A stretch of DNA of 64,000 nucleotides from positions 20,594 to 84,593 of the forward strand of contig MHZX01000110.1 of assembly GCA_001828935.1 (NCBI GenBank), read 5' to 3'. A model generated the notes under the pieces. That model was not told where the DNA came from. It searched no databases and saw only the letters and a list, made by a program, of their open reading frames with translations. This stretch comes from Rhodocyclales bacterium RIFCSPLOWO2_02_FULL_63_24. Lineage in GTDB: Bacteria > Pseudomonadota > Gammaproteobacteria > Burkholderiales > Rhodocyclaceae. The position numbers were made by a program, and so were the translations under genes. Below, in pieces: positions 560 to 49,915 of the stretch. Position 1 is the first letter of the stretch. Each line of letters begins with the position of its first letter.

Positions 560-913
560 TTACCCGCCCAAGAGCCCTTGCGTCAGCAGCCGGTCGATTT
601 CTGCCTCGGCTTGCACCCAGTCTTCCAGCGGATTGCCGGGCGCAAAGCCGCGTCGCTCGGCAATGTAATAGGCGGCCATTTCGATGTAATGCTTGCGCTG
701 CTCGGGAGGCACGCCGGCCGGCTTCTTGGCGGCGCGCGCTCGCACCGGTTTAGCCGCTGCCGCCGGCTTTGGCGCCGCCTTGGCTCTTGCTGCGGGCTCC
801 GGTTTCGGCGCCGGCTTCGCCTTGGCGGCCGTTTTTGCCTTTGTCGCGCTGGTTGCCGCGGCAGGCGCCGGACGCTTGGTGGGCGGACTCTTCGCACTAG
901 TCTTGGTTGCCAT
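560..913 (-). CDS. DUF2934-type protein with Ala/Lys/Pro-rich (histone H1-like) N-terminal tail
   Basis: C-terminal HYIEMAAYYIAERRGFAPGNPLEDWVQAEAEIDRLL resembles DUF2934; low-complexity KPAAAAK tail. Confidence 0.7.
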   Translation of the reverse strand: MATKTSAKSPPTKRPAPAAATSATKAKTAAKAKPAPKPEPAARAKAAPKPAAAAKPVRARAAKKPAGVPPEQRKHYIEMAAYYIAERRGFAPGNPLEDWVQAEAEIDRLLTQGLLGG

Positions 914-1030
914 GTGATCTCCTCCGGATTTCAAAAAACACTTCCATTGTCATCCTGCTCCCGCTACATGACAAGATATTGACGAACGTCAAGTTGCAGC
1001 ATGTTTGCGCGGTCGCGAACCGCGACGGGA

Positions 1031-1993
1031 TCAGGAGCGGAGGGCGGCCAGCTGCAGTGCGCCGTGCAGGCCCAGCGCCGGATCGGTGGCGACATGGACC
1101 GGCATGCGTGCGGCGATGGCGGCGTGTTCGGCCTTGGCCTTGAAGGCGGCGAGGAAGCCGCTGTGTTGCAGTATCGGCAGCAGTTTGGCGGCGATGCCGC
1201 CGGCCAGGAATACGCCGCCGCGCGCCAGGCAAGCCAGGGCCATGTCGCCGGCGAAAGCGCCATAGGCGGCGAGGAACAGGTCCAGCGAGCGCCGTTCGGC
1301 GCTGTCCGGCGCGTCCGGGTCGTTCAATGCGGCGCGCGCGGCGATTTCCTCGGGCGGCAATTCGACTCCGGCAAGGAATTCGTGGATCGCCGTCAGCCCA
1401 GGCCCGGACACCACTCGTTCCCAGGTGACGCGGCCATGCCTGGCGTGCAGGAAACGCCACAACGCCATCTGCTGCTCGTCGGCGGGGGCGAAAGCGACAT
1501 GGCCGCCCTCGCCGGCAACGATCCGCCATTGCCCGTCCTGCGGCAGGACGATAGCCATGCCCAGTCCGGTGCCGGCCCCTACCACCAGACAAGGCGCTGT
1601 GCCTAGCGGTTCTCCAGCCTGCAGGGTCAGTGTTTGCGCGCGGGAGGCGGTGACCGCACCCATGGCGGCGGCAGCGAAATCGTTCGCCAGGCGCAATACG
1701 GGAAGGCCGAATCCGCTCGCCAGGGATTCGCTGGCGATGCGCCAGGGCAGGTTGGTCAACTCTGCCGTGCGGCCGTCATCGGCGATCGGGCCGGCGACAG
1801 CGAGACAGCCGTCGTCGATGGTGGATGGGTTCGTCTGCGTGTCGGCGAAGAAGGTCGCGAGCAGACTGGCGAAATCGTGAAAGTCGGCGTTGGCGTAACG
1901 GCGTTCAACAACAAAATTGCCGTTGTGCGCCAAGCCCAGCAGCGTCTTGGTGCCGCCGATGTCGCCGCAAAGGATATAAGGCCTTTCCCCCAA
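1031..1993 (-). CDS. glk: Glucokinase (start uncertain: TTG ~1993 or GTG ~2005; the ORF runs open further upstream)
   Basis: YILCGDIGGTKTLLGLAHNG... GAGTGLGMA ... VAGEGGHVAFAP motifs of bacterial glucokinase. Confidence 0.9.
   Translation of the reverse strand: MGERPYILCGDIGGTKTLLGLAHNGNFVVERRYANADFHDFASLLATFFADTQTNPSTIDDGCLAVAGPIADDGRTAELTNLPWRIASESLASGFGLPVLRLANDFAAAAMGAVTASRAQTLTLQAGEPLGTAPCLVVGAGTGLGMAIVLPQDGQWRIVAGEGGHVAFAPADEQQMALWRFLHARHGRVTWERVVSGPGLTAIHEFLAGVELPPEEIAARAALNDPDAPDSAERRSLDLFLAAYGAFAGDMALACLARGGVFLAGGIAAKLLPILQHSGFLAAFKAKAEHAAIAARMPVHVATDPALGLHGALQLAALRS
1877..1903 (+). repeat. Family-A 27-bp repeat copy (within glk)
   Basis: GTGAAAGTCGGCGTTGGCGTAACGGCG vs consensus GCAARAGTCGGCGYTGGCGNNACGGCG. 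Confidence 0.6.
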
Positions 1994-2004
1994 CCCCCGT
2001 CCCA

Positions 2005-2057
2005 CGGCCGGCTTTGCACAGCCGGCCGGCTCCGGCGGCGCGGAGCCGTGCTCCGCG
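2005..2057. repeat. Two adjacent strong hairpins between thyA and glk
   Basis: 2005-2028 cGGCCGGCT-TTGCAC-AGCCGGCCg (9-bp stem) and 2039-2057 CGCGGAGC-CGT-GCTCCGCG (8-bp perfect stem). Confidence 0.75.
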
Positions 2058-2160
2058 AATTCCCGCCTTTGCCCCTGGGAAGGGGGTGACGGCGGTTCGT
2101 CGGCTACGCCTCCTTCGGCGATGGATGGTCCCGTCTTGGGGCGGCCCTGCGGCGGGACGT

Positions 2161-2967
2161 TCACACGGCCACCGGCGCCGCAATGTGCGGATATGGGTCG
2201 TAGGCTTCGAGCGCGAAGTCCTCGTAACGAAAGCCGAAAATGTCCTTTACCTCCGGGTTCAAGAGCATGGTGGGGCGTTGACGCGGTTCGCGGGAAAGTT
2301 GCTCGCGGGTCTGTACCAAGTGGTTGGAATAGAGGTGGCAGTCGCCGCCGGTCCACACGAATTCGCCCGGCGTCAGATCGCAGACCTGCGCCACCATCAG
2401 CGTGAACAGCGCATAGGAGGCGATGTTGAAGGGCACGCCGAGGAAGATGTCGGCGCTGCGTTGGTAGAGCTGGCAGGACAGCCGTCCGTCGGCGACGTAG
2501 AACTGGAACAGGGCGTGGCAGGGCGGCAACTTCATTTGCGGGATGTCGGCCGGGTTCCAGGCCGAGACGATGTGCCGGCGCGAATCCGGATTCTGCTTCA
2601 GGCCTTCGATCAGTTGCGCGATCTGGTCGATTTCCTTGCCGGGGTTGTCGGATGTGCCGGCCGGCCAGTGCCGCCACTGATGGCCATAGACCGGACCCAG
2701 GTCGCCGTTGGCGTCGGCCCAGTCGTCCCAGATCGAGACGCCGTGGTCCTTGAGGTAACGGATGTTGGTGTCGCCCTGGAGGAACCACAGCAGTTCGTGG
2801 ATGATCGAGCGCAGGTGCAGCTTCTTGGTGGTCAGCAGCGGAAAGCCCTCGGCCAGGTCGAAGCGCATCTGCCAGCCGAACACCGAGCGGGTGCCTGTGC
2901 CGGTACGGTCGGATTTCTCGTGTCCGTGGTCGAGGACGTGGCGCATCAGGTCAAGGTAGGGGCGCAT
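2161..2967 (-). CDS. thyA: Thymidylate synthase
   Basis: 268 aa, [38 protein letters not shown]... [26 protein letters not shown]. Confidence 0.98.
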
Positions 2968-40501: not shown

Positions 40502-42607
40502 CTAGCTGGAAAGTCGGGAAATGTCGGCGACCCGGTTCATCAAGCCGGCGAGGCGCGACAGCAGGGCCAGGCGATTGGCGCGAATCGCCGCATCCTCGGC
40601 CATCACCATGACGCCGTCGAAGAAGGCATCGACCGCGCCACGCAAGCCGGCCAGGGCTTTCAGCGCACCTGCATAGTCCTCGGCGGCAAGCTGGGCTTCG
40701 ATGCGGGGGGCGGCGGCGGTGACGGCGGCGAACAGCGCCTGCTCCGCATCTTCCTGCAACAGCGTGGCATCGACCGTCGCGTCGGCGTCGCTGCCTGATT
40801 TCTTGAGGATGTTCACGATGCGCTTGTTGGCTGCCGCCAGCGCTTCGGCTTCGGGCAACGCGGCGAAGGCCTTGACTGCGGCGAGCCGCGCCGGGACCTG
40901 GTCGATGCGCGCCGGATCGAGCGCCAGCACCGCATCGACCGCCTTGTGGTCGTGCCCGGCGTCGCGCAGCATGTGGCGCAGGCGCTCCTTGAAGAAGTTA
41001 TGCAAAGCGGTATCCCCTTGCGGGACGGCGCTGGCGACACGCCAGTTGCCGCTGAACAGTTCAGGCGCGAAGCCGGCGGCGGCCTCGTCGATCAGATCCG
41101 GCAGCGCCAGCGGCAGCGGTGTTTCCATCAGGATGCGCAGTACACCCAGCGCGGCGCGGCGCAGGCCGAAGGGGTCCTTGTCGCCGGTCGGTATCTGGCC
41201 GATGCCGAAGAAACCGATCAGCGCATCGAGCTTGTCGGCCAGCGCCACGGCGCAGGCGACCGGGCCTTGCGGCAGCGCATCGCCATTGAAGCGCGGCTGG
41301 TAGTGGCTCTGGATCGCGTCGGCCACCACGGCCGGCTCGCCGTCGGCCAGCGCGTAGTAGCGGCCCATGATGCCCTGCAGTTCGGGGAACTCGCCGACCA
41401 TGTCGCTGACCAGATCAGCCTTCGCCAGCAGGGCCGCGCGTTCCGCCTGCATGGCGTCGGCGCCGAGGCGCTGCGCAATGGCGGCGGCCAGCTTGACCAG
41501 GCGGTCGACGCGCTCGCCCTGGCTGCCCAGCTTGTTGTGATAGACCACCCGCGACAGCTTGCCGATGCGTGCCGAGAGCGGCGTTTTCTTGTCGGTCTCG
41601 AAGAAGAACTTGGCGTCGGCCAGGCGCGGGCGCACCACGCGCGCGTTGCCGGTGACGATATGCACCGGATCGGCGACCTTCATGTTGGAGACGACGAGGA
41701 AGCGATGGGTCAGCTTTGCATCCTGGCCCGCGCCATCCATCAGCGGGAAGTACTTCTGGTTCGCCTTCATGGTCAGGATCAGGCATTCCTGCGGCACGGC
41801 AAGAAACTCCGGCTCGAAGTTCGCTTCATACACGGCGGGGAATTCGACCAGGGCCGTGACTTCGTCCACCAGCGCTTCGTCCTTCAGCCAGGTCAGCGTG
41901 CCGGCGGCGCGGTCGAGTTGCTCGACGATCATGGCGCGGCGCCGGCCGAAGCTGGCGATGACGTGGCCCTGCTTTTCCAGCACCGCTTCGTAGTCGGCAG
42001 CGCTCGGAATCTCGATCACGCCGATGCTCATGAAGCGGTGGCCGCGCGTCACATTGCGGCTGGGCAGGCCGAGCACCGTGCCGCCGACGATGCGCGGGCC
42101 GTGCAGCATGATGAGCCCATGCACCGGACGCACGAACTGCGCCTCGCCGGCGCCCCAGCGCATCAGTTTGGCCACCGGCAGTTTCTTCAGCGCGGCTTCG
42201 ACCATGGCGGACAAATATTCGTCGAGGCGGCCGCCGCTCTTCTTGAGGCGGGCGACGAAATACTCCGCCTTGCCATCGTTGAGTTTTTCCAGTTGCCCGA
42301 ACTCGACCCCTGCGGAACGCATGAAGCCCTCCAGCGCCTTGGTCGGCGTGCCGTCGGCGCCGACTCCTGAAGCCACCGCCGGGCCCTTCTTCTCGATCAC
42401 GCGATCCGGCTGGCTTTCCAGGCAGTCGTCGAATTGCAGCGCCAGCCGGCGCGGCGTGGCGAACCAGCGGCCCACATTGGCGGCGTCGATGAAGCCGGCT
42501 TCGGCCAGCGCCTTCTGCATCTGCTCGCGGAAGGACAGGCCGAGCCTGGCCAGCGATTTCGGCGGCAGTTCCTCGGTCAGGAGTTCGATCAGCAATGTTG
42601 CCTTCAT
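40502..42607 (-). CDS. glyS: Glycyl-tRNA synthetase beta subunit
   Basis: [23 protein letters not shown]...; paired with glyQ. Confidence 0.97.
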
Positions 42608-43494
42608 GCCGCCGCTCCTTTGCACATGGGGAAGCCCAGCCGCTCGCGCGAATCGTAGTAGGCCTGCGCCACTTCGCGCGCCAGGGCGCGGACGCGGCCG
42701 ATGTAGGCGGCGCGCTCGGTGACCGAAATCGCGCCGCGCGCGTCGAGCAGGTTGAAGCTGTGCGAGGCCTTCATCACCATCTCGAAGCCGGGCAGCGGCA
42801 GGTTGAGTCCCATCAGGCGCTTGGCCTCCGATTCGAACTTGGAGAACTGCGCAAACAGCCAGTCCACATCGGAATGCTCGAAGTTGTAGGTCGACTGCTC
42901 GACTTCGTTCTGGTGATACACGTCGCCGTAGGTGACGCCGGGCGCCCAGACCAGGTCGAAAACGTTTTCCACGCTTTGCAGGTACATCGCCAGGCGCTCG
43001 ATGCCGTAGGTGATCTCGCCCAGCACCGGGCGGCAGGCCAGCGAGCCGACTTCCTGGAAGTAGGTGAACTGGGTGACTTCCATGCCGTCCAGCCAGACCT
43101 CCCAGCCCAGGCCCCAGGCGCCCAGGGTCGGCGATTCCCAGTCGTCCTCGACGAAGCGGATGTCATGTTCGGAGGTGTTGATGCCGAGCGCGCGCAGGCT
43201 GTCCAGATAGAGTTCCTGGATGTTGGGCGGGCTGGGCTTGAGCACCACCTGGTACTGATAGTAGTGCTGCAGGCGGTTCGGGTTCTCGCCATAGCGGCCG
43301 TCCTTGGGGCGCCGCGAGGGCTGCACGTACGCGGCCTTCCACGGCTCGGGGCCGATCGAGCGCAGGAAAGTGGCGGTATGGAAGGTGCCGGCGCCGACTT
43401 CGATATCGTAGGGCTGCAGCAGCACGCAGCCCTGTTTGTTCCAGAAGTCCTGCAGGCGCAGGATGACTTCCTGGAACGTAGGTTTTTGGTTCAT
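42604..43494 (-). CDS. glyQ: Glycyl-tRNA synthetase alpha subunit
   Basis: [75 protein letters not shown]. Confidence 0.99.
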
Positions 43495-43823: not shown

Positions 43824-44531
43824 CTATAAGTAATCTCTGTGTAGCCAATTGATGTAATGCGCTGTTCCCTCTGGGCCTGGATACGCGGACTCTTGATTTA
43901 CCCCAAGCTTATCTAGCGTTCTCAGTATGTCTAGTTTCTTAACGTGGGGAATTTCTTTCATAAGAAACCTTCCGTCAATTGAAGTATTACTGGCCACATC
44001 AACAAACTGCTCAGCTTCTTCAGAATATTTGTGTACGGTGAACCATCCGCTCTGAGCTTTAATTCTGCTGTTGTTAATGTTTGGCTTTACGACGTAGGTT
44101 TTTGTAATTTCGAATGGATCTTTTTCGATTGACGTGTCCAGTAGTTCGTTGTCCTTTGCGGAAAGCATATAAATAAAGCCGTCGGAAGGAGACTTGTAAT
44201 CTGAACACGCGAACCACAAAGCAAATAATGGGTTTGTGGTCCAGTCAAGTAGCCTAGTGGTCAAACCGTGATGCTGGGCATAGACCAAAATATCCCAAGC
44301 ATCCATTGCTGCAATATCTCTCTCGCGAGCTAGTCTCCTCCTGAACTCTTCAATGAGTTGTCGTTCGATTTTGACCGTGTTCTCCTTGGGATTTCTGCGC
44401 GCCACTTTAGGTAATAGCGGCTCGTTCACTGGCTGGCCACGAAATAGGAGATAGCCACTGGTGTCTTTGACTAATGACTCTGTCGAGGCGACAAGATCCT
44501 CGACAGAGGTTATGTATCGATCCGTTCTCAT
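43824..44531 (-). CDS. FRG-domain-containing protein in AT-richer islet
   Basis: YLLFRGQPVNEPLLPKVARR...YAQHHGLTTRLLDWTTNPLFALWFAC: FRG-domain signature. Confidence 0.85.
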   Translation of the reverse strand: MRTDRYITSVEDLVASTESLVKDTSGYLLFRGQPVNEPLLPKVARRNPKENTVKIERQLIEEFRRRLARERDIAAMDAWDILVYAQHHGLTTRLLDWTTNPLFALWFACSDYKSPSDGFIYMLSAKDNELLDTSIEKDPFEITKTYVVKPNINNSRIKAQSGWFTVHKYSEEAEQFVDVASNTSIDGRFLMKEIPHVKKLDILRTLDKLGVNQESAYPGPEGTAHYINWLHRDYL

Positions 44532-44786: not shown

Positions 44787-45827
44787 TCAGCAGACCTTGC
44801 CTGCCGCGCAGGTCGCCTTCGCCACATGGCTGGAGTGCAGTTCGCCGATCATGCGTTCGAGTTCGTCGATCTTGCGCTGCATCGAGGCGAGGCGTCCGTT
44901 CATGGCGCCGACGTTGAAGAAGGTTTCGCGCTCGGCCGGGGCATCGAGGCGGGCGGCATAGCCGAGCCAGGACGAGTCATAGACCTTGACCTTGTTGAAG
45001 CCGAGCGTCTCCAGTACCGCCGCGGTTTCCGCCGCGCGCACGCCGCTCTGGCAATAGACGACGGTTTCCTTGTTCGGGTCGAGCTTGGCGTAGAGGCTGC
45101 GCAGGGCGTCGGTCGGCGCGAGGCCGGCGCCCTTGTTGTCGGCGACCTGGCGGCGCGACATCTTGGCGTTGGTTTCGGGGTCCTTCCAGTTCCGTTCGTA
45201 GGGAATGTTGAGCGCGCCCGGGATGTGGCCGCCGCGGATGGCGCGGACGTCGTTGCCGAGGTATTCGCCGGCGCAGCGGGCGTCGATGATCTGCGCGGCA
45301 CCGGTCTTGGCGCGGCTCACCACGTCTTCGGTGCTGGCGATCAGTTCCGGGTGCGGGCTGGGCTTGAGCGTGCGCGCCGGGCGTTGCGCATCGGCGGTTT
45401 CGAGCGCAAAGCCGGCATCCTGCCAGCCTTCGACGCCGTCATGGAAGACGCTGACCTTCTGTGCGCCGAAGTATTGCAGGGCAAGGCGCCCGAAATAGGC
45501 ATAGGGGTTGCCGCGTTCGGCATAGACGATGATTTTCTGGGCCGGATCGATGCCGGCGTTGCCAAGGATCTTCTCGATCTGCGCGGTTTCGATGAAATCT
45601 TCCGTCACGGCGTTGCGCAGGACGTTGCCGGCATCGCCGATGCTGACCGCGCCGGGTATGTGGCCCTTGCGGTAAAGCGGCGTGGCGCGCACGTCCCAGA
45701 CGATGGCGCCTCGTGCCTGCGCGGCTTTTACGGCCGCCGCATCGACAATCGGGGCGGCGAGCGCCGGTGCGGAAATGAGAGCAGTGAGCAGCAGCAGGGC
45801 GGAATACAGGCGAGCAAGCGTTTTCAT
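44787..45827 (-). CDS. Periplasmic multi-rhodanese sulfurtransferase
   Basis: Signal peptide; rhodanese segments AIVWDVRATPLYRKGHIPGAVSIGD, AQIIDARCAGEYLGNDVRAIRGGHIPGALNIPYE; TVVYCQSGVRAAETAAVL. Confidence 0.9.
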   Translation of the reverse strand: MKTLARLYSALLLLTALISAPALAAPIVDAAAVKAAQARGAIVWDVRATPLYRKGHIPGAVSIGDAGNVLRNAVTEDFIETAQIEKILGNAGIDPAQKIIVYAERGNPYAYFGRLALQYFGAQKVSVFHDGVEGWQDAGFALETADAQRPARTLKPSPHPELIASTEDVVSRAKTGAAQIIDARCAGEYLGNDVRAIRGGHIPGALNIPYERNWKDPETNAKMSRRQVADNKGAGLAPTDALRSLYAKLDPNKETVVYCQSGVRAAETAAVLETLGFNKVKVYDSSWLGYAARLDAPAERETFFNVGAMNGRLASMQRKIDELERMIGELHSSHVAKATCAAGKVC

Positions 45828-45912: not shown

Positions 45913-47940
45913 CTAGTCGACGCGGATATTGCCGGCCCTGATCCAGCGCGCCATGTGCGCCGCGTCCTCGCGCACGAAAGCGGCGAATTCCTCGCTGCCG
46001 TCGCCGGATGCCGTCTGGATCGACAGGTGCGCGAGGCGGTCGACCAGGTCATGCTGCTGCAGGGCACGCCGCACTTCGGCGTTGAGGTAGCGGACGATGG
46101 CTGGCGGCGTTGCCGCGGGGACAAAGATGTCGTTCCAGGGATTGATGTCCATGCCCGCCACGCCGAGTTCGGCGAAGGTGGGGATGTCGGGGAATTGCGC
46201 CTGCCGCCGTTCGCCGGTGACGGCCAATGTGCGCAATTTGCCGGCCTTGACCTGGGGCGCCGCCGCGGCGGGGTCGACGAAGGCGAGATTTACCCGGTCG
46301 CCGAGTAGGTCGGCGATGGCCGGCCCCGAGCCGCGGTAGGGAACATGGATCAACTGGACGCCAGCCTGGTTTTCGAACGCCACTGCGGCGAGATGATGGC
46401 TGCTGCCTTGGCCGGGGCTGGCATAGGTCAGATGTCCCGGATTGCGCCGTGCCTCGTCGACCAGTTGGCGCAGGTTGCCGTGGGCGCTGCCGGCATTCAC
46501 CGCCAGCAGCAGCGGCACCTGGGTCAATGCGGCGACCGGCTGCAGGTCGGTGCGCACATCCACCGGCGTGCTGCGATAGAGCTGCGAGGCAATGGAAATG
46601 TTGGACGAGCTGCCGACGAGCAGGGTGTAACCATCGGGAGCCGAGTTGGCAACCGCTTCCAGCCCGATCATGCCCCCGGCACCCGCGCGGTTTTCGACGA
46701 TGACCGGTTGCCCCAGGCGTTGGGTCAGCACCTGCGCCAGTACGCGGGCAACTAGGTCGGTGGAGCCTCCTGCTGCGAAGGGCACGATCAGTCGCAGCGG
46801 CTTGTTGGGATAGCCGCTGACGCTCGCCACGGGAATCTCCGCCGGACGGGCGCCGGCGGTGACAGTCGGCGCCAGCGCCACGGTGACCGGCGCCGCGGGC
46901 CGAAGCGGCGCCGGCGTGGCGACGGGCGCCGGCCGGGTCTCGATCTCGATCTGCTTGAGGCGGGAGCGCGCCACGGCGGCGAAGCGTCCGCTCGGATGTT
47001 GGTCGAGGTAGGCATTCAACTCCGCCGCCTGCCTGCTGTCCTTGACGCTGTCCCACAGCGCCAGTTCGAGCATGGCCGGATCGGCGGCGGTACTGCTCGC
47101 CGGCGCAGCAAGGGCCTGGCCGGGGCGGAAGTAAAACTCGCCCAGGGCCTGGTCGTAGAGCGCCGGCACCTGTTCGTGGCCGACGCTTTTCGCCAGGCGC
47201 ACCACTTCTTCGCGCACGTTGCGCAACACCTTGTCGACCGGGATGCCGGGCTTGGTCATTTCCTTGAGGAAGACGCGGGTGAACAGGCCGTTTACGTTGG
47301 TGTCATGGTCGCCCAGCCGATCCAGCGCCTGCTGTCCGGCGCCCGCCGAGTAGAGCACCATCTGTCCGGTGGCGGCGCTGGTGGGCGCCAGGCCGCGCCC
47401 GCCGATGGCACGCCCGGCGCCGCGGAAGGGGTTGTTGCGACAGGCGTCCACAATGGCCAGCGAGAAGCGCGCCTTCTGGTCCTGCAGATCGTCGAGCACC
47501 CTTTGCAGGGGCATCGCATCGTCCTTGATCTGGTCTTCGCTCTCGCCGACGATGTCGGTCGGCAACAGGTAGTTGGCGGCGCCGAGTTGCACGCCATGGC
47601 CGGAAAAGAAGAACACGGCTTCGTCGCCGCCGCTGATCTGGCCCTTGAACAGGCGCATCGATTCCTTCATCTGCTTCTCGCCGGCGTCGAGCCGCAGCAT
47701 GACCCTGAAGCCGGCCTCCTCCAGCGCCCGTGCCATGGCGCGGGCGTCGGCGCGGGCATTCTTGAGTTTGTCGACGCGCTGGTAACCGTCGCTGCCGATC
47801 ACCAGCGCGATGCGCTTGCCGTCGCCCTTCGCGCCCTGCACGGCCAGCGTGCGTCCGCCGCTTTGCGGCAAGGCGGGGAAGGCCAGCAGGAGCCCGAGCG
47901 CAAGTGCGAAGCAGTAAGCCAGTGAACTCCGGGAGAACAT
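45913..47940 (-). CDS. Secreted caspase-like (C14) peptidase fused to Bug/TctC-type substrate-binding domain
   Basis: Signal peptide; RIALVIGSDGYQRVDKLKNARADARAMARALEEAGF, VFFFSGHGVQ, LAIVDACRNNPF (His/Cys dyad); then NKPLRLIVPFAAGGSTDLVARVLAQVLTQRLGQPVIVENRAGAGGMIGLEAVANSAPDGYTLLVGSSSN. Confidence 0.93.
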   Translation of the reverse strand: MFSRSSLAYCFALALGLLLAFPALPQSGGRTLAVQGAKGDGKRIALVIGSDGYQRVDKLKNARADARAMARALEEAGFRVMLRLDAGEKQMKESMRLFKGQISGGDEAVFFFSGHGVQLGAANYLLPTDIVGESEDQIKDDAMPLQRVLDDLQDQKARFSLAIVDACRNNPFRGAGRAIGGRGLAPTSAATGQMVLYSAGAGQQALDRLGDHDTNVNGLFTRVFLKEMTKPGIPVDKVLRNVREEVVRLAKSVGHEQVPALYDQALGEFYFRPGQALAAPASSTAADPAMLELALWDSVKDSRQAAELNAYLDQHPSGRFAAVARSRLKQIEIETRPAPVATPAPLRPAAPVTVALAPTVTAGARPAEIPVASVSGYPNKPLRLIVPFAAGGSTDLVARVLAQVLTQRLGQPVIVENRAGAGGMIGLEAVANSAPDGYTLLVGSSSNISIASQLYRSTPVDVRTDLQPVAALTQVPLLLAVNAGSAHGNLRQLVDEARRNPGHLTYASPGQGSSHHLAAVAFENQAGVQLIHVPYRGSGPAIADLLGDRVNLAFVDPAAAAPQVKAGKLRTLAVTGERRQAQFPDIPTFAELGVAGMDINPWNDIFVPAATPPAIVRYLNAEVRRALQQHDLVDRLAHLSIQTASGDGSEEFAAFVREDAAHMARWIRAGNIRVD

Positions 47941-48089
47941 GGAAACTCCGGTGTGGCCGCGGAAGCGGCGATTATGAACTTGAGCGACGCATCGTCAAGC
48001 GGGCATGAATTGCATGCCTATCCGGGATCGCCGCAGCGGCTTCCGGTATCATCGGCGCCAATGCAACGACAGGCTAAAGGAGCGGCATC

Positions 48090-48404
48090 GTGGATCATGA
48101 AGTCAGCGTAGTGTTGAAGAACGGCGAGCGTTACGACATTCCCTTGGGCGCGGACGATCTTGCCGCTTTCGATGCCGCCGGCGCGCGGCACTGGATCGCC
48201 GAGGCTTTCCAGGCGGCAGGGCTGGAAACTCCGAATCCGATGGGAAAACTGCTGCTGGTCGACCAGATCCTGCTGCTCGCCCAGAATTTCAAGCCTGCGG
48301 ACTACAAACCGCTGAGTCCCGAGGTGCACCGCTTCCTGTGCGCGGCCCTGCTGGCCATGGGACGGCCCAGCCTGACCATCGACCTGGTGACCAACAAGCT
48401 CTAG
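48090..48404 (+). CDS. Conserved hypothetical protein, 104 aa
   Basis: Intact ORF MDHEVSVVLKNGERYDIPLGADDLAAFDAAGARHWIAEAF...; convergent with lnt. Confidence 0.65.
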   Translation: MDHEVSVVLKNGERYDIPLGADDLAAFDAAGARHWIAEAFQAAGLETPNPMGKLLLVDQILLLAQNFKPADYKPLSPEVHRFLCAALLAMGRPSLTIDLVTNKL

Positions 48405-49915
48405 GCTTCGCGGCGGCGTAGCGCCGCCAGGCAGGCGCCGGCCGCGATCAGCAGCGCCAGCAGGTTGCCCCAGCGCGCATAGGGCGTCAGGCCGCTGCGG
48501 CCCTGGGCCTGCACCACCAGCGCAGCGGTGACGAAAGGCGGCAGCGCGGCGGCGATTTCACCGTTCGGGGCGACCATGGCGGTCATTCCGGTGTTGGTGG
48601 CGCGCAGCATCACGCGGCCGGTTTCGATGGCGCGCAGCCGGGCAATCTGCAAGTGTTGCGGCTGCGCCAGCGAATCGCCGAACCACGCCGTGTTGGAAAG
48701 ATTCACCAGCAGGGTCGCCGCCGGCAAGGCGCCGAGCAGCTCCTCGCCGAACAGATCCTCATAGCAGATATTCGGCGCGATGCGCTGTCCGGCCACGTTG
48801 AGCGCTTCCTGGCGCGCCGATCCCGCGGTGAAATCCGACATTGGAATATGCGCGAAGCGGAAGAACCAGCCAAAGCCGGGCGGGGCGTACTCGCCGAAGG
48901 GTACCAGGTGGCGTTTGGCATAGGCCTGGGCGGCGAGTTGCGGCGTCAGGGTCACCGCGCCGTTGGTATAGCCGCCGTCGGTGGTGCCGACGGCGACGCC
49001 GATCAGCGCGTCGCCGTGACGCGTCAGGCCGTGCAACACTTCGCGCGGAACTTCGTTGAAATACAGTGGCAGGGCGGTCTCCGGCAGCACGGTGAGCGCG
49101 GCCGGATGATTTTGCGCCAGGCGCAGGTAGGTATCCACCGACAGCGGCAGCCGTTTCGGGTCCCACTTCAGGCTTTGCGGCACGTTGCCCTGCAACAGAC
49201 TGACGGTGACCGGGCTGCCGGCCGGTTGGGTCCAGTCCATGCGTCGCAGCAGGCCGCCGAGGCCGAGCAGCAGCATGATCGCGATCCACGCCCCCGGCTT
49301 GCGCCAGCCGCCGCCGCGCATTGCGCCCAGCAGCCCGCCGATCAGGGCGACGCCGAAGCCGACGCCATAGACGCCGAGCACCGATGCCCAGCCCGCCAAG
49401 GGACTGGGCGGGCTTTGCGAATAGCCGACGGCGAGCCAGGGAAAGCCGGTGAACAGCGTGCCGCGCAGCCATTCGGCGAGGGTCCACAGGCCGGCGAAGA
49501 GCAGCGCGTCGCGTCGCGTGCTGCTGCGCCAGCGCACGAACAGGCCGCCCGCCAGTGCGGGAAACAGGGCCAGGTAGAGGCAGAACAGCAGCGTCGCGCC
49601 GGCCGCCGCGGGCGGCGCCAGGCCGGCGAACTGCGAGAGGCTGACATAGATCCACGACACGCCGAACAGGAAACAGCCGGCGCCCCAGGCCAGGCCGAGC
49701 AGCATCGCTGCGCGCGTGGTGGTCGCCTTGCGCCAGAGCAGGAACAGCCCGCCCAGGGCAAGAGTCGGCGCTGGCCAGACGGGGAAATATGCGGCGAAAT
49801 AGGCGTCGAAGGGTGCGAAGCCGAGGACGCAGAGCGCCCCCAGCGCCGCTGCCGCGGCAAGCGAGGAAACTGCCGGACGCCGCGGCGTCGGCAGTGGCGT
49901 CCGCGCCTGCGTCAT
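48401..49915 (-). CDS. lnt: Apolipoprotein N-acyltransferase
   Basis: GVSWIYVSLSQFAG, TVLPETALPLY, HLVPFGEYAP, ICYEDLFGEELL, LVNLSNTAWFGDS. Confidence 0.96.
   Translation of the reverse strand: MTQARTPLPTPRRPAVSSLAAAAALGALCVLGFAPFDAYFAAYFPVWPAPTLALGGLFLLWRKATTTRAAMLLGLAWGAGCFLFGVSWIYVSLSQFAGLAPPAAAGATLLFCLYLALFPALAGGLFVRWRSSTRRDALLFAGLWTLAEWLRGTLFTGFPWLAVGYSQSPPSPLAGWASVLGVYGVGFGVALIGGLLGAMRGGGWRKPGAWIAIMLLLGLGGLLRRMDWTQPAGSPVTVSLLQGNVPQSLKWDPKRLPLSVDTYLRLAQNHPAALTVLPETALPLYFNEVPREVLHGLTRHGDALIGVAVGTTDGGYTNGAVTLTPQLAAQAYAKRHLVPFGEYAPPGFGWFFRFAHIPMSDFTAGSARQEALNVAGQRIAPNICYEDLFGEELLGALPAATLLVNLSNTAWFGDSLAQPQHLQIARLRAIETGRVMLRATNTGMTAMVAPNGEIAAALPPFVTAALVVQAQGRSGLTPYARWGNLLALLIAAGACLAALRRREA
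49759..49785 (+). repeat. Family-A repeat copy (within lnt, antisense to the gene)
   Basis: GCAAGAGTCGGCGCTGGCCAGACGGGG. Confidence 0.75.

Follow-up and report, generated by a model that had tools for sequence, protein, structure and literature searches.

The locus described here raises the question of why a caspase-like peptidase is joined to a domain of transporter solute receptors in one probably exported protein, and what that domain does for the protease. What bacterial caspases sense and cut is, to our knowledge, largely unknown, and because known small carboxylates are bound by relatives of the domain fused here, this protein gives direct access to the question of sensing. The window analysed is a stretch of 64,000 nucleotides from a draft genome (G000; 147 contigs, 91% complete) that GTDB places in the genus Sulfuritalea. 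The account rated here as fairly probable is that of a periplasmic, Arg/Lys-specific orthocaspase whose Bug domain would sense or capture a small ligand of the carboxylate type.

Architecture and locus of the fusion gene

The fusion gene was located at positions 45913-47940 of the minus strand, with the ATG at 47940 and the stop codon at 45915-45913, and it encodes 675 aa. A probable Sec signal peptide was read from the sequence at residues ~1-26 (LALGLLLAFPALPQ; 47863-47940), followed by the caspase (Peptidase_C14) domain at residues 42-266 (47143-47817), a helical linker with one repeat copy at residues 288-335 (46936-47079) and the TctC/Bug solute-binding domain at residues 376-675 (45916-46815), all on the minus strand. 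The ligand motif of the Bug domain, PFAAGGSTD, lies at residues 387-395 (46756-46782, minus strand). The Pfam search assigned Peptidase_C14 to residues 42-266 with an E value of 1.2e-27 (97.6 bits against a curated cut-off of 21.4) and TctC to residues 397-669 with an E value of 8.1e-73, covering model positions 1-271 of 274. The caspase scored 55.2 bits against the EACC1-associated type NF047832, which is below the curated cut-off of 140 bits for that type.

The AlphaFold model of the fusion revealed two well folded domains with a mean pLDDT of 85.6, most of both being above 90, and a linker of three helices (288-299, 305-314 and 321-335). The low-confidence stretches were 1-37, 278-286 and 341-364. 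Because the pTM was only 0.59, the model does not predict how the two domains are placed relative to each other. Foldseek matched the Bug part to Bug27 (2qpq, TMt 0.96), to open TphC (0.95) and to closed TphC (0.87), and the N-terminal part to the caspase domain of MALT1 (3v4o, TMt 0.78). By sequence, too, Bug27 was the nearest solved structure to the C-terminal part (E 1.5e-68), and MALT1 was the nearest to the N-terminal part. These results are in accordance with the earlier note, which had described a single uninterrupted minus-strand reading frame of this length, a C14 caspase domain and a Bug/TctC domain, a helical linker between them and two intact catalytic motifs; the latter were found as H115 in SGHG and C167 in DACRNN.

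The fusion could in principle be an artefact of assembly or annotation that joined two genes, a reading for which the fragmented state of the draft would speak. This Bug domain type was found in five of the 31 Sulfuritalea genomes (G000, G024, G009, G012 and G004), and the four genomes besides the source were assembled independently and show the same architecture, which also answers the supposition that the two halves are always separate genes in homologues. The G024 fusion has 78-79% identity to that of G000, and its contig ends ~14 residues before the C-terminus. The proteins of G009 (795 aa as read) and G012 (834 aa) consist of a signal peptide, a caspase, three or more linker repeats and a Bug domain, so the linker varies across the fusions from one to ~four helical repeats. 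The junction between caspase and Bug lies inside a single contig in G000, G024, G009 and G012, and the G004 gene spans the contigs C205 and C209, whose ends overlap exactly over 141 bases and in frame. An artefact is therefore practically excluded. In the G009 fusion (L003, contig C60) an ATA stands at the position of the orthologues' ATG start, which may be a sequencing error, a rare start or a damaged start.

Wherever the flanks were available, the fusion sits between lnt (48401-49915, minus strand), together with a divergent 104-aa open reading frame, and glyQ (42604-43494, minus strand). The same flanks occur in other species as empty sites. A promoter-like element, TTGACG-16-CATAAT, was located at 47971-47998 (minus strand), ~30 bases upstream of the window fusion; in the form TTGACS-N16-CATAAT it is aligned at all five fusion loci and was absent from the empty lnt-glyQ sites. 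The divergent frame (48090-48404, plus strand) gave no match in Pfam and has ~65-86% identity across the genus at this site. Between the fusion and glyQ the window carries an exported double rhodanese gene (44787-45827, minus strand) and, after it, a gene for an FRG-domain protein (43824-44531, minus strand) that matches PDC-S15, a candidate phage-defence family, with an E value of 2e-77. Both neighbours were considered as partners and rejected, neither being found between the fusion and glyQ in G009, G004 and G012. The rhodanese is probably outside the fusion system, since it is present at the site without the fusion in other genomes. A possible phage-defence role was also considered, from the match of the caspase to the PADLOC model PDLC02987; the match was partial (model positions 5-163 of 453, E 2e-16) and had no supporting context, and a candidate defence gene (FRG) lies two genes away in G000. 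In the adjoining glyQ-glyS pair (40502-43494; L228-L254) the identity to the window falls across the genus into groups of ~85-90% and ~46-51% for GlyS and of 94-98% and 75-78% for GlyQ; this split suggests that the pair was replaced by transfer.

Caspase exchange in a modular family

The distribution of the fusion was analysed with a profile search, in which the best two candidates of each genome were scored. No further full-length match was obtained in 398 genomes of the order and 398 of the family; since two candidates were scored per genome, the result speaks clearly against close relatives of the fusion and weakly against fusions that arose independently. A further contig scan returned the G024 contig as the sole fusion, the other 79 loci matching the Bug part only. 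Long reading frames over Bug domains (L327-L341) were examined as possible fusions and rejected: nearly all are long by chance, the Bug domain being directly preceded by a signal peptide and a normal start, no caspase was found in any, and the G015 frame (L327) carried no second Pfam domain. The patchy spread, five of 31 genomes, indicates that the gene is dispensable. Loss or transfer of the fusion within the genus is likely, because the lnt tree scatters its carriers.

The caspases of the genus form a large family, with 22 C14 matches in G000 and 21 in G002 (one contig). The sibling proteins carry FGE-sulfatase, WD40, TolB_N/PD40, Sel1, thioredoxin, PDZ, S41 peptidase, DUF3108, DUF4384 and cyclophilin domains. 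The linker repeat, with the pattern W..KxS...xYLxxxPxGRFxxxA, is common to many Sulfuritalea caspases. It was found in 32 of 69 C14 proteins, and the 3745 other frames read, for the most part not genes, contained no copy. In this modular family of ~20 members, accessory domains of many kinds are exchanged, and the Bug domain is one of them. Two further arrangements were seen in G000. The protein of L258 (positions 856-2646, minus strand, contig C18) combines linker repeats and a cyclophilin-type prolyl isomerase with a caspase of the type that G009, G012 and G004 have in their Bug fusions, and that of L260 (953-3664, plus strand, contig C101) has an S41 peptidase and a PDZ domain ahead of the caspase and thus two proteases in one protein. 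The G024 contig C166 encodes a 700-aa caspase with a signal peptide and a full DctP domain (L290, 1048-3147, minus strand; E 5.2e-96). DctP proteins are the receptors of TRAP transporters. This contig is short and comes from a single MAG; it has two N-runs, neither at the caspase-DctP junction, and no such fusion was found in the other genomes among the 31 examined. As read from the genomes, two solute-binding families are joined to caspases in the genus, TctC in five genomes and DctP in one MAG.

The phylogeny of the two parts gave different pictures. In a tree of 193 Bug sequences those of the five fusions came out as a single clade (SH-aLRT 100), and the fusion caspases fall into two clades that are 35% identical. 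The caspases of G000 and G024 group with those of other genera and of G002, and the caspases of G009, G012 and G004 have as their neighbours a paralogue from G004 and the cyclophilin-carrying caspase of G000. Along the protein, the identity between G000 and G009 is ~0.65 over residues 1-57, 0.2-0.4 from residue 58 to ~330 and ~0.7 thereafter, with clear breakpoints near residues 45-57 and 335-345. The alignments and trees thus show that the caspase cassette was exchanged beneath a conserved Bug domain and a signal peptide that all five fusions share in spite of their different caspases. The replacement probably happened in the G000/G024 line, because fusions of the G009 type branch at the base of the Bug clade, within which G000 and G024 form a nested pair (support 99/96 for G009 with G000 and G024, and 90/89 for the pair). 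With the Bug domains monophyletic and the caspases in two clades, the association between this Bug domain and an exported caspase has therefore outlived the replacement of the caspase. A part of the G012 Bug domain (G000 residues 481-510) resembles a recombinant segment.

Selection on both parts was estimated as dN/dS by the Nei-Gojobori method, which is rough here since dS was often high. The values were 0.06-0.09 for the caspases within each type and 0.13-0.35 for the fused Bug domains, the latter being about two to three times the values of those TctC orthologues in the genus that are linked to transporters (0.06-0.12 within subgroups and ~0.2 between them). Both parts are under purifying selection, and the faster evolution of the Bug part could reflect relaxed constraint. 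These data bear on the explanation that the fusion arose by domain shuffling and is neutral or under weak selection, a process in which secreted caspases share linker repeats and recombine with exported genes and the Bug domain has no current role. The number of C14 genes (up to 22 per genome) with their many different modules, the clear breakpoints and the rate of the Bug part would all fit such shuffling. Purifying selection on the Bug domain nevertheless holds over dS values of ~0.45 to 1.1, the frame has stayed open in five species with the motif intact, as is the fold in the window protein, and the same Bug clade was retained through the caspase swap. A neutral origin of this kind is regarded as improbable.

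Transporter absence, key residues and proposed function

In G000, G009, G012 and G004 the fusion is the only PF03401 gene, and no match to PF01970 (TctA) was found in these genomes, an absence limited by the incompleteness of the drafts (91%, 99%, 97% and 85% complete, respectively). The earlier note had seen neither TctA nor TctB genes nearby; its statement was upheld for TctA and, for that permease, extends to the whole source assembly. G024 has a second TctC gene and a TctA fragment, and in many other Sulfuritalea with ordinary TctC genes TctA lies within a few kilobases. It is very unlikely that the fused domain feeds an ordinary TTT permease, because four of the five genomes lack TctA and have no Bug gene besides the fusion. 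Since five species share the fusion and most have no matching transporter, the binding domain is suggested to serve the protease now.

The residues expected at both functional sites were analysed. The H115/C167 dyad is conserved in both caspase types, and D65, D165 and D207 align with the acidic S1 residues D365, D462 and E500 of MALT1. Because these three acidic positions are kept, the caspase is predicted to take Arg or Lys at P1. The loop motif of the Bug family, as given in PMC5812351, is P-F-x-A-G-G-x-x-D. Its PFxxGGxxD core is intact in all five fusions, although in one of them the T before the final D is replaced by S; the four fusions other than that of G000 have P in place of the A of the family motif, like most of the free-standing Bugs aligned. 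The conserved H516, Y535 and G537 are also kept. The numbering of TphC was transferred by motif from PMC8556258 and by sequence alignment to solved structures, and N197 of TphC, near the distal carboxylate, corresponds to D or E in all five fusions and mostly to N or T in 56 free-standing Bugs. This acidic residue suggests that the ligand may have a cationic or hydrogen-donating distal group.

In the proposed mechanism, the fusion would be exported to the periplasm and work there as an orthocaspase, most likely as an active protease that cleaves after Arg or Lys. The Bug domain would derive from a solute receptor of the TTT type that was taken up from the pool of Bug proteins in the Burkholderiales; it would no longer serve a transporter and would provide the protease with an input or recognition module. 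A small carboxylate-type ligand would close the clamshell of this domain and thereby regulate the caspase or direct its site of action. Ligand gating of proteolysis, taken by itself, is a plausible step that falls somewhat short of probable, the remaining weight of this account falling on recruitment or targeting; gating is compatible with everything found, and the pTM and the linker, variable in length and in part of low confidence, give the coupling between the domains no computational support.

The Bug domain could instead be a tether or substrate-recognition module that docks the caspase on a sensor kinase, a membrane protein or a target, with control exerted otherwise, for example by Ca2+ or self-processing. 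The sibling modules are largely protein-binding or protein-modifying (WD40, PDZ, Sel1, FGE, cyclophilin), and a linker of one to ~four repeats fits a tether better than a rigid allosteric switch; the preserved ligand-binding motif and clamshell fold would be needless for pure docking, and the tether is held to be fairly unlikely. The sensing or capturing role is retained as the preferred reading, and some pairings of modules with caspases may be incidental, given the wide shuffling in the genus. The exchange of caspases under a single conserved Bug domain, together with the DctP fusion as a parallel case, suggests a way in which receptors of transporters can be taken over to provide the input for periplasmic proteolysis. 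A wider generalization, that exported caspase fusions with TctC and, separately, with DctP are one-component ligand-gated periplasmic proteases in a genus whose ~20 caspases bear exchangeable sensor and effector modules, is put forward tentatively and is rather doubtful.

Comparison with known systems

The fusion resembles the prokaryotic orthocaspases, or bacterial metacaspases, surveyed by Asplund-Samuelsson et al. 2012 (PMC3501461) in the C14 domain, the intact His-Cys dyad and the presence of accessory domains. Passages of that survey describe 112 architectures of caspase homologues, with WD40, TPR, Sel1 and FGE as the commonest partners, and a smaller share of proteins that start with a helix or an export signal, a feature which the fusion shares in its probable export signal. 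The passages of the survey that were consulted name no TctC or DctP accessory domain, and a single case may be buried elsewhere in it. The literature searched held no report of a fusion of a caspase with TctC or with any solute-binding protein.

The Bug/TctC proteins Bug27, BugD, TphC and MatC share the fold and the loop motif with the C-terminal part, which is 41% identical to Bug27 in the structural alignment (TMt 0.96). The fusion differs from them in that its Bug domain is not stand-alone, no TctA accompanies it in the genome and the N197 equivalent is acidic. Among solved caspases the MALT1 paracaspase is the nearest by sequence and fold and has the same three acidic S1 positions. In contrast to the putatively exported fusion, MALT1 is a cytoplasmic signalling protein of eukaryotes with Ig and death domains.

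The BctC-BctE system of Bordetella, in which citrate-loaded BctC activates the BctE kinase, and other solute-binding proteins that drive signalling receptors (PMC5812351, PMC9602780) share with the proposed role of the fusion the use of such a protein, in BctC one of the TctC type, as a signal input. BctC is a separate solute-binding protein acting on a sensor kinase, whereas here a covalent link connects the Bug domain to a protease. Many accessory domains of caspases and solute-binding proteins as signalling inputs were already known, and what appears to be new, in the literature searched, is a solute-binding domain on a caspase.
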